A DNA stretch of 64,000 nt from Calditrichia bacterium (GTDB lineage: Bacteria; Calditrichota; Calditrichia; RBG-13-44-9; J075): the NCBI GenBank assembly GCA_028284905.1, contig JANQQU010000073.1, positions 124,001 to 188,000 on the forward strand, in the 5' to 3' direction. A model generated the notes under the pieces. That model did no database searches, was not told where the DNA came from, and was given only the letters and a program-made list of their open reading frames with translations. Both the position numbers and the translations under genes were made by a program. Below are positions 18,083-27,096 of this stretch, one piece after another (positions within the stretch are counted from its first letter, which is position 1; every line of letters starts with the position of its first letter).

Positions 18083-18359
18083 ATCAATTCTACTTCCATT
18101 CTTGTGCTAAAAAGAATATCAATTCCCGGCCATTTATGCAAATAAATCTTTCCTGCCCGGGAGCAACCTGAATGAAAACAAATGATTAAAAAGTGCCAAC
18201 AAATTTAATATCACTTAGGGGATTGAGAATGCTCTTGGTAATAGCTGTAGATAATAATAGCCAAATCAGTATTTTTGTATCAAATTGGAAAATTTTCAGG
18301 CGTTAGTTGGACTTAAAAAGTTAACGATTTGGATATACATTTATTTTCGGAGGTTAGTT

Positions 18360-21300
18360 ATGCGTTACATCTGGTTACTGGTTCTAAGCGGCTTTTTCTT
18401 CGCATCGGTTAGTATTTATGCGCAGGAATGGGTTGAGATGATGGAAGATCCATCAGCAAATTTCTATGACACCCAACAGTCCTTTAACAATTACTGGGAT
18501 GGTAAGGAAATTGAAAGAGGGAAAGGCTGGAAACAGTTCAAGCGTTGGGAATATTTTATGGAGCAGCGGGTATTTCCTACCGGCGTTATTCCTGCGCCAA
18601 ATCAGGCAGCGAATGCTTATCAACAATACACTGAGTCACTGGATAACTTTGGCGAAACGGGAGGCAATAATTCGGACTGGAGCTCACTCGGTCCCAGTTC
18701 CTGGCAGGCAATTGGCTGGAATCCCGGTATTGGCCGGGTAAATTGCACCACGGTGGATCCTTTCGACAGCAATACTGTTTACATCGGCGCACCGGCTGGT
18801 GGCTTCTGGGTATCTTATGATCGCGGCGGCTCCTGGGAAACGACGACAGATGACCTGACGGTTCTCGGTGTTACTTCAATTGTCATTCATCCGCAAAATA
18901 GCAATATCATTTATATTGGCACTGGTGACGGCGATGCCGGTGATACTTACAGCATCGGTATATTAAAGTCTGTCGACGGTGGATTTAACTGGTCGCCGAC
19001 CGGTTTGAACTGGGATGTTACCCAAACCCGCCGAATCAGCAAAATTCTCATTCACCCGGATACGCCGGACATAATGCTCGCTGCCACCAACAATGGTGTT
19101 TATAAATCCACCGATGCCGGCGATAGCTGGACGTTGACACGCTCGGGAAATTTTAAGGACATCGAATTTAAACCGGGTGATCCTTCCGTGGTCTATGTTG
19201 CGGGCAGTTCATTTCTCCGTTCGATTGATACCGGCAGTACTTTCGCCGGGGCCAGTGGCATTCCCAGTGGCGGCGTCAATCGTTACGCGCTGGCGGTTAC
19301 GCCGGCCAATCCGGAATATGTCTACGCACTGGCCGGTGCATCTTCGAATTCCGGCTTTTTCGGGTTATATCGCTCCACCAACAGCGGCGCACAATTTACC
19401 CGGCAATCGAACTCGCCCAATCTTATGGGCTGGGCGCTCGATGGAAATGACAGTGGAGGCCAGAGCTGGTACGACTTATCAATTGCCGCATCGCCGGTCG
19501 ATCCGGAAGTGATTTATACCGGTGGGGTTAATATTTGGAAGTCGGTCAACGGTGGCGTCAACTGGTCAATTGCCACCCACTGGAATTACAATACCAGCTC
19601 CGTTCCCTATGCCCATGCCGATATCCATTCCCTGGACTATCACGGTAACACCCTTTTTGCCGGCACAGATGGCGGCTGCTGGATCACCGATAATGATGGC
19701 GGGGACTGGGCAGATATTAGTGCAGGCCTGGTCATCTCCCAATTTTACCGTATCGGCGGTTACCCCGGTGATGCCGGATTGTTAATCGGCGGCACGCAAG
19801 ACAATGGCACCAACCGTCTCGCCGATGGTCAATGGACCCACGTGCTCGGTGCCGATGGTATGGAAGCGGCGATCGATTATTCCGATCCTAACATCATGTA
19901 TGGTTGCATCCAGGGGGGCGCTTTGCAAAGATCTTTTGATGGCGGAAACAATTTTGATGATATTACACCCGCAAATGGTGCCTGGGTGACACCTTACCAG
20001 ATCGACCCACATAACCCGGAGATCCTTTATGGCGCATATTCCAGCCTGCTTAAATCGACCAATCGTGGCAATAGCTGGGCGCCAATCTCTCCCGCCTTCG
20101 GATCGCTGAATTCCCTTGCGGTTTCACCGACCGATCCCAATTATATTTACACTTCGGACAATTCAAATCTCTATCGGACCACTGATGGCGGGGAAAATTG
20201 GGATTTGATTTCCGGTGCTGTGCCGAACTTATATATTACCTATACGGCGGTCTCCAATCATGACCCGCGCCATATCTGGATTACCCTCTCCGGTTATACC
20301 GCCGGGCAAAAGGTGTATCATTCCACAGACGCTGGTGCTACCTGGGAGAATATTTCCGGTAGCCTCCCGAACCTGCCGGCCAACTGTGTGGTTCACCAGA
20401 AAGATGGTTATGATGCTGTTTACGTCGGCACCGATGTTGGCATCTATTATCGTAATGCGACCATGAGCGACTGGGAGCCTTATTTTACCAATTTACCGAA
20501 TGTGATTGTCCAGGAACTGGAAATTCACTATGCATCGAATACTATAAAAGCTGCAACCTTTGGCCGAGGCATTTGGGAGTCTCCGCTGGGTCCCCCATCC
20601 GCCAGTATTGCACATACTCAGTTGGGCAACACAGACGATCTTGATGGTCCGTACGAAGTAACAGCCACCATAGTGCCCGGAGAAGCTAGTTTGAATCTTG
20701 ACAAACTGTTTCTCTTTTATGGCACCGGAGGTGTATTAGATAACTTCACAACGATGACGCCTACCGGAAATCCCCATGAATATAGTGGTTCTATCCCTGC
20801 CCAGGGCAGTGACATCTTTGTCGAGTATTATATTTCTACGGAAGATAACAACGGCTATGTTCGCAATCTTCCCTACAGTGCACCGGAATCGTTTTTCTCT
20901 TTCTATGTTGGTATAGACGATACACCGCCGGCTATCAGCCACGAAACATTTCCATTTGTTGAGTTTTCGGAATTGCCTGCCCATATCAGTACCAGCGCAA
21001 CGGACTTATTTGGCATAGACACCGTTTGGGTAGAGTATTCTGTGAATAACGGACCACTGATGACTTTTGGCTTAAGCGGCGAGAATGAGAATTACAGCGG
21101 TACATTTCCATTCGACAGCACTTCGATCAATATCAATGATGATGTAGAATATACGATTTATGCTCAGGACGCTTCCAGTGCTGGCAACCAAGCCCTCGAC
21201 GGCCCGCATAACTTTTACATTCGCCGGACCCTCAGCACCCTCAAACAAGGGATTATCCGGGTTATTCCCGATAACGATCCGATTGGTTATAGCGATACCT

Positions 21301-22031
21301 TAACAGTGGTTGATCCTGAGAATTATTATGTTCGGGAACTAAAATTTTACGTCAGCAATGTTCATAATAATATCGGGGATCTGGTCTTTAAATTAACGGC
21401 GCCGAATGGCGAACAAATCACTGTTATGGATCGTCCCGGTTATCCTGCCAGTGCTACTGGTAGTCCAGGCAACGGACCGCGCATCTTTCTGGAGGACAAC
21501 GCCGAGGTGAGTATCGAAACCGTCGAGGTTGGCAATACCACGACGCTTACCGGCACATACCGTCCCGATCCTGATTTGCTGAGCACATTTAATGGTGTCT
21601 CCTATGGTGGAGATTGGGTGCTTAACATCAGCGATCATAACCAGGGCATTCTTGGGGTTATCCAGGAATGGGGCATCTACGCCGCGGTTACCACAACCAC
21701 CTCGATTGATGACCGGGAAATTGTGGAAGTGCCCAGGCAATATCATCTTTTCCAGAATTACCCGAATCCCTTTAATCCGGAAACGACTATTCGCTATGAT
21801 CTACCGGCAGCAGGCACAGTGTCTCTGACTATCTACAATGTGCTTGGTCAGCAGGTGCGGCAATTGGTTAATGCGAACCAGGCAGGCGGCAGTTATTCAG
21901 TAGTGTGGGATGGCCAAAATGCATTTGGAACGAAAGCGGCCAGCGGTATCTATTTCTATCGCCTGGTGGTAGAGAATGCAACGAACGGCGAGCAGTTCAA
22001 CCAGATGCACAAAATGCTATTGCTGAAATAA
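18360..22031 (+). CDS. Large secreted Asp-box propeller protein with P domain and type IX sorting domain
   Basis: 1223 aa. ATG at 18360 follows GGAGG (18349-18353) and begins a signal peptide ending SIYAQ; the upstream frame is not used. Residues about 120-770 contain roughly eleven Asp-box turns (for example SYDRGGSW, STDAGDSW, TTDGGENW, STDAGATW), as in sortilin/xyloglucanase-type propellers. Residues about 780-960 are two beta-sandwich segments ('VEYYISTEDNNGYVRNL'). Residues about 985-1130 are a proprotein-convertase P domain ('NIGDLVFKLTAPNGEQ', 'GDWVLNISDHNQGILG'). The end is the sorting domain (NYPNPFNPETTIRYDL, 'GIYFYRLVV', KMLLLK). No sialidase or glycosidase catalytic residues can be assigned. 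Probably a surface binding or hydrolytic protein delivered by type IX secretion. It appears monocistronic, with a hairpin downstream. Confidence 0.9.
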   Translation: MRYIWLLVLSGFFFASVSIYAQEWVEMMEDPSANFYDTQQSFNNYWDGKEIERGKGWKQFKRWEYFMEQRVFPTGVIPAPNQAANAYQQYTESLDNFGETGGNNSDWSSLGPSSWQAIGWNPGIGRVNCTTVDPFDSNTVYIGAPAGGFWVSYDRGGSWETTTDDLTVLGVTSIVIHPQNSNIIYIGTGDGDAGDTYSIGILKSVDGGFNWSPTGLNWDVTQTRRISKILIHPDTPDIMLAATNNGVYKSTDAGDSWTLTRSGNFKDIEFKPGDPSVVYVAGSSFLRSIDTGSTFAGASGIPSGGVNRYALAVTPANPEYVYALAGASSNSGFFGLYRSTNSGAQFTRQSNSPNLMGWALDGNDSGGQSWYDLSIAASPVDPEVIYTGGVNIWKSVNGGVNWSIATHWNYNTSSVPYAHADIHSLDYHGNTLFAGTDGGCWITDNDGGDWADISAGLVISQFYRIGGYPGDAGLLIGGTQDNGTNRLADGQWTHVLGADGMEAAIDYSDPNIMYGCIQGGALQRSFDGGNNFDDITPANGAWVTPYQIDPHNPEILYGAYSSLLKSTNRGNSWAPISPAFGSLNSLAVSPTDPNYIYTSDNSNLYRTTDGGENWDLISGAVPNLYITYTAVSNHDPRHIWITLSGYTAGQKVYHSTDAGATWENISGSLPNLPANCVVHQKDGYDAVYVGTDVGIYYRNATMSDWEPYFTNLPNVIVQELEIHYASNTIKAATFGRGIWESPLGPPSASIAHTQLGNTDDLDGPYEVTATIVPGEASLNLDKLFLFYGTGGVLDNFTTMTPTGNPHEYSGSIPAQGSDIFVEYYISTEDNNGYVRNLPYSAPESFFSFYVGIDDTPPAISHETFPFVEFSELPAHISTSATDLFGIDTVWVEYSVNNGPLMTFGLSGENENYSGTFPFDSTSININDDVEYTIYAQDASSAGNQALDGPHNFYIRRTLSTLKQGIIRVIPDNDPIGYSDTLTVVDPENYYVRELKFYVSNVHNNIGDLVFKLTAPNGEQITVMDRPGYPASATGSPGNGPRIFLEDNAEVSIETVEVGNTTTLTGTYRPDPDLLSTFNGVSYGGDWVLNISDHNQGILGVIQEWGIYAAVTTTTSIDDREIVEVPRQYHLFQNYPNPFNPETTIRYDLPAAGTVSLTIYNVLGQQVRQLVNANQAGGSYSVVWDGQNAFGTKAASGIYFYRLVVENATNGEQFNQMHKMLLLK

Positions 22032-24277: not shown

Positions 24278-24642
24278 ACATTTGCCAATGCTATCCCGAT
24301 TTCAGAATCATCTGAGAACCTCTTCTCGGGTAAAAAACGACTGTGCGCACACCGTTATTGCCAGCCGACATCTCATTTTGAACGCCCGGTGTGCATCAAA
24401 CAAATTCGCACGATGAAATCTGCATAAAAATTTATTTCCTCCACCACATCCTTCAATTATCTATTGGTTGAATTTCTCCGAAATTCATTCATTAATTTCT
24501 CCTCTTTATAAATTCTCCGGAATGTTGTAATTTGCTTTGATTTTGTGTTTCAGCCATATTGCTGTTTCATACGCCCAAATATGCTTCGGGCAAAATTAAA
24601 ACACAGAAATCCGGTAAATCTCATAAACGGGAGAATCTTTCA
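24278..24642. other. Intergenic region before the R2lox operon
   Basis: 365 bp. It holds an imperfect hairpin with arms gcacaccg (24347-24354) and cggtgtgc (24387-24394), without a U-tract, and then AT-rich DNA that should contain the promoter of the operon starting at 24643. An in-frame ATG at 24559 lacks a ribosome-binding site and is not used. Confidence 0.4.
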
Positions 24643-26001
24643 ATGCATGATCTATTTAGCACCCCCTGGGCGAATGCATGGGAAAAAGCCCTTAATAACA
24701 ATAACACCTATCGGAATGCCGCGGAAAAGTGGGAATGGCCGGTTATTCTCGAAATTGAAGACCTGCCTGCGGAAAGCCAGGAGCTGCACTCCCAACTGTA
24801 TCTCGATCTCTGGAGAGGCGAATGCCGTTCGGTGCGGCCGGCCTTACCGGAAGATAATGACAGTGCGGCATATATCATCTCCGCACCGCTGAACGTTTGG
24901 CGCCCGGTCCTTGATGGGCACAGCGACCCCATGATGGCTTTAATGCGCGGCAAGTTGAAGTTGGTGAAAGGGAAGATGTTCAAGCTGGCCCGTTATAGTA
25001 ATGCTGCCAAGCAAATGGTTCTTTCCGCCAGAGAAGTTCCCACACGCTTCCCCGGCGACAACCAGGAAACAGCTGTTCAGGCGAGCACTAATGGCACTCA
25101 GCCTGCAGAAATCATCACTAAAAGGGAATCATTTGTCACAACCAGTGGGAAAGGCCTGAATCACAATAGTTTCCCCATGCGCCTCTATCATAAGGCAAAA
25201 CGACTGGGCATCTGGAATCCTCAGGATATCAATATCGATCAGGATAAAAAAGATTGGCAAAAACTGACAGCGCTGGAGAAAGAAGTCATCCTCCACCTCA
25301 CTTCCCTTTTTCAGGCCGGGGAAGAGTCGGTCACCCAGGATATTCTTCCCCTGTTGATGGTACTTGCCCGGGAAGCCCGCCTGGAAGAAGAAATTTACCT
25401 GACGACCTTTCTCTGGGAAGAAGCAAAACATGTTGAATTTTTTCATCGTTATCTAAGTGAAGTCATCACCGAAACCGGCGATATCAGCCGTTTTCATGGC
25501 CCGAACTATCGCCGCATTTTTTACGAATTGCTCCCGGAAGCAATGAACGCCTTGCTGGAGGATCCATCCCCGGCGGCGCAGATTCGCGCTTCCGTCACCT
25601 ACAACATGATTGTGGAAGGTACGCTTGCGGAAACCGGCTATCACGCCTATTACACCATGCTGGAACGGAACGATATTATGCCCGGCATGCGGGAAGGCAT
25701 CACGTATTTAAAAAGGGATGAATCGCGCCATATTGCCTATGGCATTTATCTCCTCTCCCGTTTGGTAAATAGCGACCCGTCATTATGGCAGGTTCTGGAA
25801 AATCGCATGGAGATGATGATGAATTATGCCCTGGCGAATATCAACGAGCTTTTTGATGCCTACCCGGAAATGCCTTTTGGCTTATCCCTGGAAGATTTTG
25901 TCGACTATGCCACCAATCAGTTTAACAAGCGGATGGATCGAATTGAACGGGCGATTTCCACACCGATGGATAAAATTGCCAATGAACTGGAAAGCGATTG
26001 A
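24643..26001 (+). CDS. SCP2 domain fused to R2-like ligand-binding oxidase (R2lox)
   Basis: 452 aa from ATG 24643 (GGGAG upstream). Residues 1-140 are a complete sterol-carrier-protein-2 domain: 'LFSTPWANAWEKALNNN', 'DSAAYIISAPLNVWRPVLDG', 'DPMMALMRGKLKLVKG', 'ARYSNAAKQM'. Residues about 175-452 are a ferritin-like R2lox. Metal ligands line up at constant offset with the known R2lox numbering: Glu227, Glu260, His263, Glu325, Glu360, His363 (69, 102, 105, 167, 202, 205 in the Geobacillus enzyme). The residues that form the Val-Tyr ether cross-link are also kept: Val230 and Tyr320. R2lox proteins bind a Mn/Fe centre and a long-chain fatty-acid-like ligand; their substrate is unknown. The SCP2 half implies that a lipid is delivered to the oxidase. 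No nrdA is nearby and the cross-link pair argues against ribonucleotide reductase. It leads an operon of four genes. Confidence 0.93.
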   Translation: MHDLFSTPWANAWEKALNNNNTYRNAAEKWEWPVILEIEDLPAESQELHSQLYLDLWRGECRSVRPALPEDNDSAAYIISAPLNVWRPVLDGHSDPMMALMRGKLKLVKGKMFKLARYSNAAKQMVLSAREVPTRFPGDNQETAVQASTNGTQPAEIITKRESFVTTSGKGLNHNSFPMRLYHKAKRLGIWNPQDINIDQDKKDWQKLTALEKEVILHLTSLFQAGEESVTQDILPLLMVLAREARLEEEIYLTTFLWEEAKHVEFFHRYLSEVITETGDISRFHGPNYRRIFYELLPEAMNALLEDPSPAAQIRASVTYNMIVEGTLAETGYHAYYTMLERNDIMPGMREGITYLKRDESRHIAYGIYLLSRLVNSDPSLWQVLENRMEMMMNYALANINELFDAYPEMPFGLSLEDFVDYATNQFNKRMDRIERAISTPMDKIANELESD

Positions 26002-26010
26002 GGATAATCG

Positions 26011-27096
26011 ATGAAAAGTAAATTGATACGCTGGGGGTTAATTTTAGCCGGATTACTGCTCTTCCTGGCACTCTTAATCCGCTTCACGACATTCCACCCG
26101 GCAGATGTGCAGCAGGAAGCCATTATCGGGGCGGAAAATGCCCCGTTGATGCAGCCCGGCGATACCGCAAAGGTCATGAGTTTCAACGTGCAATATATGG
26201 CCAGTAAGAACTACGTCTTCTGGTATGACATGCCCGATGAGAGCGGCCCGGACAGCAAGCCATCGAAAGCGCATGTGCTGGAAACGATTGAGGCGGTTGC
26301 CCGGGTCATTCGCGCGGAAGCACCGGATGTTATCCTTTTGCAGGAAATGCATGAAGATGCCGTTCGTACGTATCACATCGATCAATTAGCCGCATTGCTG
26401 GAATTATTACCCGAGGAATATCGCTGTCATTCCTCGGCTTTTTATTGGAAAGCAGACTTTGTTCCTCATCCGAAAATCCTTGGTTCGGTGGGAATGAAAC
26501 TCAGCACAATCTCAAAATATAAAATTGATCAGTCAATCCGTTATCAGCTTCCCCTCTTTCCCAAGGACATTATTTCCGCGCAATTCTATTTAAAACGGGC
26601 AATACTGGAAACCCGTTTCCCGTTAGCAGGCGGCAGCAGCTTTTACGCCCTCAACACTCATCTCGATGCGTTTGCGCACGGTCAGGATTTAATGCAAAAG
26701 CAGGTCGAAATGGTTGATGATGTTGTCAGTAAACTGGAAAGCGCCGGACATCCCTGGGTTATTGGCGGCGATTTCAACATTCTCCCTCCGGACCAGGATC
26801 CCGCTACGATGCCGGAATACCTGCGGGCCTATCATCGTCCGAAAACCGAACTTTCGCTGCTCTATGACAAGTATCCGGCAGTGCCGGCGAAGTCCGATTA
26901 CCAGGGCACGGAATATGCCCGGTGGCATACCCATTTAGCCAATCATCCCCGCGTAACCGAACCGGACAAAATCATTGACTATTTTTTCTATTCCCCCGGG
27001 CTCCCATTGTATGAAAGTCACGTGCGCCAGCATGATACTCAGGACATTTCCGATCATCTCCCGATTATTGCTACTTTTATTCTACCGGGGAATTAA
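26011..27096 (+). CDS. Membrane-anchored endonuclease/exonuclease/phosphatase-fold hydrolase
   Basis: 361 aa with an N-terminal anchor (residues about 7-25, 'GLILAGLLLFLALLI') and an EEP domain outside the cytoplasm. Motifs in order: 'MSFNVQYM', 'VILLQEMHEDAV' (metal Glu), 'ALNTHLDAFAHG', 'VIGGDFNILPPD' (Asp/Asn) and 'ISDHLPIIATF' (catalytic His). The family includes sphingomyelinases, phosphoinositide phosphatases and nucleases; the anchor and the lipid-binding neighbour favour a phospholipid or lipid-phosphate substrate, as inference. Its ATG lies 9 bp after the R2lox stop with GAGGATAATCG in front, so the genes are cotranscribed and probably coupled. Confidence 0.88.
   Translation: MKSKLIRWGLILAGLLLFLALLIRFTTFHPADVQQEAIIGAENAPLMQPGDTAKVMSFNVQYMASKNYVFWYDMPDESGPDSKPSKAHVLETIEAVARVIRAEAPDVILLQEMHEDAVRTYHIDQLAALLELLPEEYRCHSSAFYWKADFVPHPKILGSVGMKLSTISKYKIDQSIRYQLPLFPKDIISAQFYLKRAILETRFPLAGGSSFYALNTHLDAFAHGQDLMQKQVEMVDDVVSKLESAGHPWVIGGDFNILPPDQDPATMPEYLRAYHRPKTELSLLYDKYPAVPAKSDYQGTEYARWHTHLANHPRVTEPDKIIDYFFYSPGLPLYESHVRQHDTQDISDHLPIIATFILPGN

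Follow-up and report, generated by a model that had tools for sequence, protein, structure and literature searches.

Why should a domain of the SCP2 lipid-transfer superfamily sit on the same polypeptide chain as an R2-like ligand-binding oxidase (R2lox), an oxygen-activating metal oxidase of disputed natural substrate? The question is raised by one gene of the window, by which we mean the whole 64,000-nucleotide stretch of Calditrichia bacterium DNA analysed here, part of a genome of 8.55 Mb, and before any function is considered the fusion itself has to be trusted. The frame is open throughout, and a full-length orthologue, 59% identical across residues 2-448 and with the same order of domains, is present in a genome from another genus of the same family of Calditrichota. 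Although draft assemblies are common among the genomes compared, the occurrence of such an orthologue in an independent genome rules out an artefact of assembly or frame as the source of the fusion, and we rejected that reading. Between the two orthologues the SCP2 domain is 49% and the R2lox domain 67% identical; substitutions in both fall preferentially at synonymous sites, although these are saturated: pS is 0.86 versus a pN of 0.34 for the former, and 0.76 versus 0.21 for the latter. Neither the window genome nor that of the orthologue carries a PF00268 protein besides the fusion. We looked in vain for conservation of the genes around the window gene, those flanking the orthologue being different, and with the queries used we found no lipid-metabolism or electron-donor gene beside either. 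Starting 9 nt past the stop of the fusion gene is a gene (26011-27096) that by eye has the look of the endonuclease/exonuclease/phosphatase family; it may be co-transcribed with the fusion gene, and no such neighbour was seen beside the orthologue. Elsewhere in the window, positions 18285-22031 encode a 1248-residue protein in which, by eye, BNR-like repeats and a C-terminal end resembling a sorting signal suggest secretion.

By sequence model and by fold, the N-terminal part of the protein belongs to the SCP2 superfamily. Pfam model PF02036 matches residues 16-122 at 31.4 bits (cut-off 21.3), and residues 3-134 match Thermus SCP2 entries of the PDB (1wfr, E 7e-23; 2cx7, E 1e-22). Modelled alone with AlphaFold, from an alignment with seven SCP2 rows, residues 1-140 reach a pLDDT of 91.8 and find their best solved match in 2cx7 (TM 0.81), the SCP2-like domains of alkylsulfatases and of human MFE-2 being also among the fold matches. 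A sequence-only reading of this DNA had taken residues 1-140 for a whole SCP2 domain, and both the Pfam score and the fold uphold it; that lipid binds in the cavity is inferred. The closest SCP2 type is Thermus TT1886 (1wfr, 2cx7), at 36-37% identity, though in the solved structures the domain stands alone (130-143 residues). In the AlphaFold model of the full chain, pLDDT is below 50 across residues 132-167, and the largest insertion and deletion differences between the two orthologues fall in the linker, which, judging from the model, is probably flexible.

The second half is R2lox by sequence model, by residues and by fold. NCBIfam model NF006202 covers residues 162-449 (E 2.4e-126; 421 bits, cut-off 315), five NCBIfam R2lox models outrank every ribonucleotide reductase (RNR) model, and solved R2lox proteins match with E values down to 4e-67. 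Most of the R2lox part is modelled well in the full-chain prediction, which used an alignment of loci from this analysis, and the 34 best PDB matches of that model are all R2lox, with the ferritin-like R2lox fold. The sequence-only reading had placed R2lox at about residues 175-452 and had named a domain search and a structure prediction as checks; in the outcome both family models score above cut-off, the SCP2 part matches 2cx7 and the full chain matches R2lox structures before any other. Solved R2lox chains (GkR2loxI 4hr0, Mycobacterium tuberculosis 3ee4 and S. erythraea 7qbp) share with the window protein the fold, the six metal ligands, the Val-Tyr pair and the tunnel Ala, but they are about 316-330 residues long and have no carrier domain, whereas the window protein adds the N-terminal SCP2 domain and the linker.

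SCP2 rows and R2lox rows were aligned separately, in two alignments, and the numbering of the ligands and of the Val-Tyr pair in GkR2loxI was taken from PMC10867098. The six ligands, V230 and Y320 are each numbered exactly 158 higher than their GkR2loxI equivalents and are invariant in 20 of 20 aligned R2lox rows, as the claim of a single offset had predicted; V230 and Y320 occupy the V72 and Y162 columns, so that a displacement from the cross-link positions, which would have refuted the claim, is not observed. Taken alone, the Val-Tyr pair is not diagnostic against the R2 subunit of RNR, because two of the three RNR R2 rows also have V and Y at these columns. The better discriminator is the tunnel position of GkR2loxI Ala171, where R2lox conserves Ala and RNR R2 has Phe (PMC6399176): the A329 column holds Ala in all fused proteins and Phe in three of three RNR rows. 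An RNR R2 subunit (NrdB/NrdF) that has acquired an SCP2 domain could draw on the PF00268 match (residues 190-434, above cut-off) and on a fold common to RNR R2, but it was rejected as virtually impossible, given Ala and not Phe at the tunnel position, a best RNR model of 58 bits (cut-off 309) against 421 bits for the best R2lox model, and a tree that groups the window protein with R2lox. The presence of a Mn/Fe cofactor, a formed ether bond and a bound fatty acid remains an inference.

Table 1. Features of the SCP2-R2lox fusion gene, in window positions; residue numbers are those of the fusion protein, with GkR2loxI equivalents in brackets.
Feature	Position	Strand	Basis
Probable ribosome-binding site GGGAG	24629..24633	+	9 nt before the fusion-gene ATG; read from the sequence
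SCP2-R2lox fusion gene	24643..26001	+	452 residues, ATG start, stop included; open frame and 59% identical full-length orthologue
SCP2 domain, residues about 3-134, Thermus TT1886/2cx7 type	24649..25044	+	PF02036, PDB match, model
Linker of varying length and sequence, residues about 135-161	25045..25125	+	low pLDDT; orthologue indels
R2lox domain, residues 162-449	25126..25989	+	NF006202 above cut-off; top fold matches R2lox
Metal ligand E227 (E69)	25321..25323	+	invariant column
Cross-link residue V230 (V72)	25330..25332	+	column invariant among 20 R2lox rows
Metal ligand E260 (E102)	25420..25422	+	invariant column, 20 R2lox rows
Metal ligand H263 (H105)	25429..25431	+	invariant column
Cross-link residue Y320 (Y162)	25600..25602	+	invariant among R2lox rows
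Metal ligand E325 (E167)	25615..25617	+	invariant column, 20 R2lox rows
Tunnel residue A329 (A171), Phe in RNR R2	25627..25629	+	alignment and PMC6399176
Metal ligand E360 (E202)	25720..25722	+	invariant column
Metal ligand H363 (H205)	25729..25731	+	invariant column

Is this arrangement an isolated case? The census that the sequence-only reading had called for was made on samples of 40 Calditrichota genomes, 68 genomes of the phylum of G315, 396 from that of G283 and 385 in a panel spanning the bacteria; the phylum of G283 was judged to be Actinomycetota because that genome carries eleven WhiB genes. The census rests on these genome samples, since the sole pattern scan of contigs was built on the SCP2 half and found nothing beyond the orthologue already known. 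The window type of fusion occurs in two of the 40 Calditrichota genomes, and a fusion in reversed order, R2lox-like domain first and SCP2 at the C-terminus, was recovered with a profile of the C-terminal domains as 16 proteins in 15 of the 396 actinobacterial genomes, 31 of which gave matches (fused loci L125, L127-L130, L132, L134-L136, L138, L139, L142, L143, L146, L149 and L150). When the full-length alignment was used to search 24 genomes from the class of G530, 13 gave matches, some of them having several fused copies. The C-terminal extension is SCP2 above the Pfam cut-off in all nine R2lox-like proteins examined. The nearest NCBIfam models to the C-terminal fusions (five of the nine tested) are R2lox models, matched below cut-off, and we therefore term these proteins R2lox-like and not certified R2lox; the six ligands, the Val-Tyr pair and the tunnel Ala are retained in 16 of 16. 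A recurrent lipid operon around them was sought and not found. Eighteen of the 68 genomes from the phylum of G315 were matched, 17 with R2lox, the match in G421 grouping with RNR; the R2lox loci examined there are unfused, with no nearby SCP2 of either type searched, and a search for two SCP2 types near Mycobacterium-like chromosomal copies of R2lox likewise found none.

To place the two kinds of fusion we used a tree of 61 R2 domains, obtained by a quick search and with SH-aLRT support only. R2lox and RNR are split with a support of 100. Next to unfused R2lox, the window fusion groups in one clade with its orthologue (support 97), and the C-terminal fusions form a separate R2lox-like clade (support 95), whose 19 rows comprise 16 fused proteins, two cut by contig ends and one with a separate SCP2 gene. 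The reversed order of domains is an independent pointer to two fusion events. Tree and domain order together indicate that at least two independent events, of opposite domain order, joined SCP2 to R2lox or R2lox-like domains, a conclusion drawn from sequence data.

Pairing is also found between separate genes. At locus L100 an SCP2 gene begins 5 nt past the stop of an R2lox-like gene, a spacing from which we take the pair to be translationally coupled; the SCP2 scores just below the Pfam cut-off, and the position of the R2lox-like protein in the tree is unsure because its branch is long. On plasmid pROB01 of Rhodococcus opacus B4, R2lox is flanked by an NDMA-dependent alcohol dehydrogenase and by an FAD oxidoreductase, the latter followed by a ferredoxin, an aldehyde dehydrogenase, an SCP2 protein and a fatty acid-CoA ligase. 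The order is repeated on a second R. opacus plasmid, where an MCE-family gene lies farther along, and R. oxybenzonivorans has the same set of genes rearranged, a two-component regulator standing between R2lox and the group of aldehyde dehydrogenase, SCP2 and ligase. A Mycobacterium plasmid carries R2lox, a 136-residue protein, a ligase and an alcohol dehydrogenase; the 136-residue protein, itself among the three sequences from which the profile of the Rhodococcus SCP2 type was made, belongs to that type and scores just below the Pfam cut-off. Rhodococcus R2lox clusters also hold a ferredoxin reductase together with aldehyde dehydrogenase and ferredoxin, and suggest the ferredoxin and its reductase as candidate electron donors. 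In Rhodococcus sp. 008, R2lox is accompanied by such donors, with no SCP2 inside 8 kb. The cluster described for GkR2loxI (PMC10867098) resembles those on the plasmids in placing R2lox beside alcohol and aldehyde dehydrogenases and an acyl-CoA ligase, but its R2lox is unfused and the gene list given there names no SCP2. With phmmer the plasmid SCP2 shows no detectable similarity to that of the window protein, and the plasmid clusters therefore represent a separate pairing and not the direct ancestor of the fusion.

The window genome has just one further SCP2 domain, carried by an acyl-CoA dehydrogenase (ACAD). Positions 1-1779 of L001 (G000:C7, about 263845-265623) encode an ACAD followed by a long low-complexity linker and a C-terminal SCP2, the gene adjoining one that by eye is CaiB/BaiF CoA-transferase-like, and several Calditrichota genomes have comparable ACAD-SCP2 fusions. 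A stand-alone SCP2 gene of the Thermus type (L022, 8116-8529) is clustered with what by eye are acyl-CoA ligase-, thiolase- and DUF35-like genes.

What, then, might the carrier do for the oxidase? We favour the view that the fusion is a self-contained lipid oxidase in which SCP2 feeds a long-chain substrate to R2lox, and put the probability of this at roughly 55%. The N-terminal SCP2 domain would bind a poorly soluble long-chain compound (a fatty acid, alkane, fatty alcohol or acyl-CoA) and, by means of the flexible linker, would concentrate it at the hydrophobic tunnel of R2lox or pass it into the tunnel; there the Mn/Fe (or Fe/Fe) centre would activate O2 and the lipid would undergo a two-electron oxidation, most likely hydroxylation of a C-H bond. 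Delivery is favoured because the coupling of the two domains is repeated, the R2lox tunnel is known to hold a long-chain fatty acid bound at the metal ions (PMC6399176), and GkR2loxI is reported to act as an alkane hydroxylase, C10-C22 alkanes being consumed in crude lysate (PMC10867098). A precedent for such a role is provided by the bacterial alkylsulfatases SdsA1, SdsAP and Pisa1, which also combine a metalloenzyme for long aliphatic chains with an SCP2-like domain, thought to recruit the long-chain substrates, although their catalytic domain is a metallo-beta-lactamase-like hydrolase of different origin; a paralogue without the SCP-2-like domain is inactive on SDS (PMC6107682). The hand-over of ligand, the exact substrate and hydroxylation by the window protein itself are inferred, and a route from pocket to tunnel has not been demonstrated, the relative placement of the domains not being confidently predicted (linker pLDDT below 50).

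An SCP2-like domain is likewise found on human MFE-2 (1ikt), a lipid enzyme that processes acyl-CoAs, but there it accompanies other catalytic domains, in the eukaryotic peroxisome. Several points count against delivery: most R2lox proteins work without SCP2, our queries found no lipid-metabolism or electron-donor gene next to either the window gene or the orthologue, and the evidence for alkane activity of GkR2loxI comes from crude lysate, with activity lost only in part in the E202A/H205A mutant (PMC10867098).

Two other roles for the carrier have to be weighed. SCP2 might be a module for docking to a membrane or partner, or an aid to oligomerisation, its lipid pocket playing no part in catalysis. 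The low-confidence and probably flexible linker, the difference in domain order between the two fusions and the weaker conservation of SCP2 than of R2lox between the orthologues (49% vs 67%) would all fit such a role, but the SCP2 domains coupled to R2lox differ in sequence, the plasmid type not being detectably similar to that of the window. Coupling to such divergent domains suggests that a shared property, lipid binding, is what matters, and we consider docking improbable. Alternatively, SCP2 could remove or shield the oxidised product, or buffer toxic free fatty acid, instead of delivering substrate. This is equal to delivery in anatomy and lipid logic, SCP2 proteins bind both fatty acids and acyl-CoAs, and an acyl-CoA ligase adjoining SCP2 in the plasmid clusters would fit a hand-over of product. 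The alkylsulfatase precedent points to substrate recruitment (PMC6107682), which makes product shielding unlikely in our judgement, though no direct evidence separates it from delivery.

Substrate delivery thus remains the reading we prefer. That the oxidase acts on a lipid, as had been inferred from the presence of the carrier domain alone, is not proven but is strengthened by the second fusion, the coupled gene pair and the operon association. As of 2019 R2lox had no identified physiological function (PMC6399176), and the further statement that its reaction is unknown is no longer wholly correct, given the alkane hydroxylase activity reported for GkR2loxI (PMC10867098); the evidence for this is modest, the one activity that we found described since then having been seen in cells and in crude lysates. 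Lipid substrates in several branches of the R2lox family are indicated by the independent fusions and by the gene pairs with a lipid carrier, and the fused protein, its separated domains and mutants of the SCP2 pocket are ready-made constructs for addressing this question. A wider interpretation, possible but doubtful, is that R2lox and R2lox-like proteins make up a wide class of Mn/Fe lipid oxygenases coupled to SCP2, the joining having recurred as N- or C-terminal fusions, coupled genes or operons, and the fused forms oxidising carrier-bound bulky lipids (acyl-CoA, isoprenoid or sterol-like) beyond the range of unfused R2lox. In agreement with the sequence-only reading, no description of an SCP2-R2lox fusion was found in the open-access literature searched, most subscription journals lying outside our coverage; new here are the fusion in reversed order, the coupled R2lox-like/SCP2 gene pair and the plasmid R2lox clusters with a separate SCP2.

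Some features of the actinobacterial proteins deserve mention in their own right. The C-terminal fusions occur in up to three full-length copies per genome and have Gln at the position of the second-sphere Tyr175 of R2lox, and several of their loci have in common, by eye, a glycyl-tRNA synthetase-like neighbour. In the R2lox-like proteins of L126, L141 and L144, which possibly form a further functional group, Ile replaces the cross-link Val; Gly replaces the tunnel Ala in three actinobacterial rows, probably the same three. Finally, L103 (9313-10284) encodes a relative of R2lox that is probably unable to bind the usual pair of metals, because Lys and Val replace two of the metal-ligand Glu residues.
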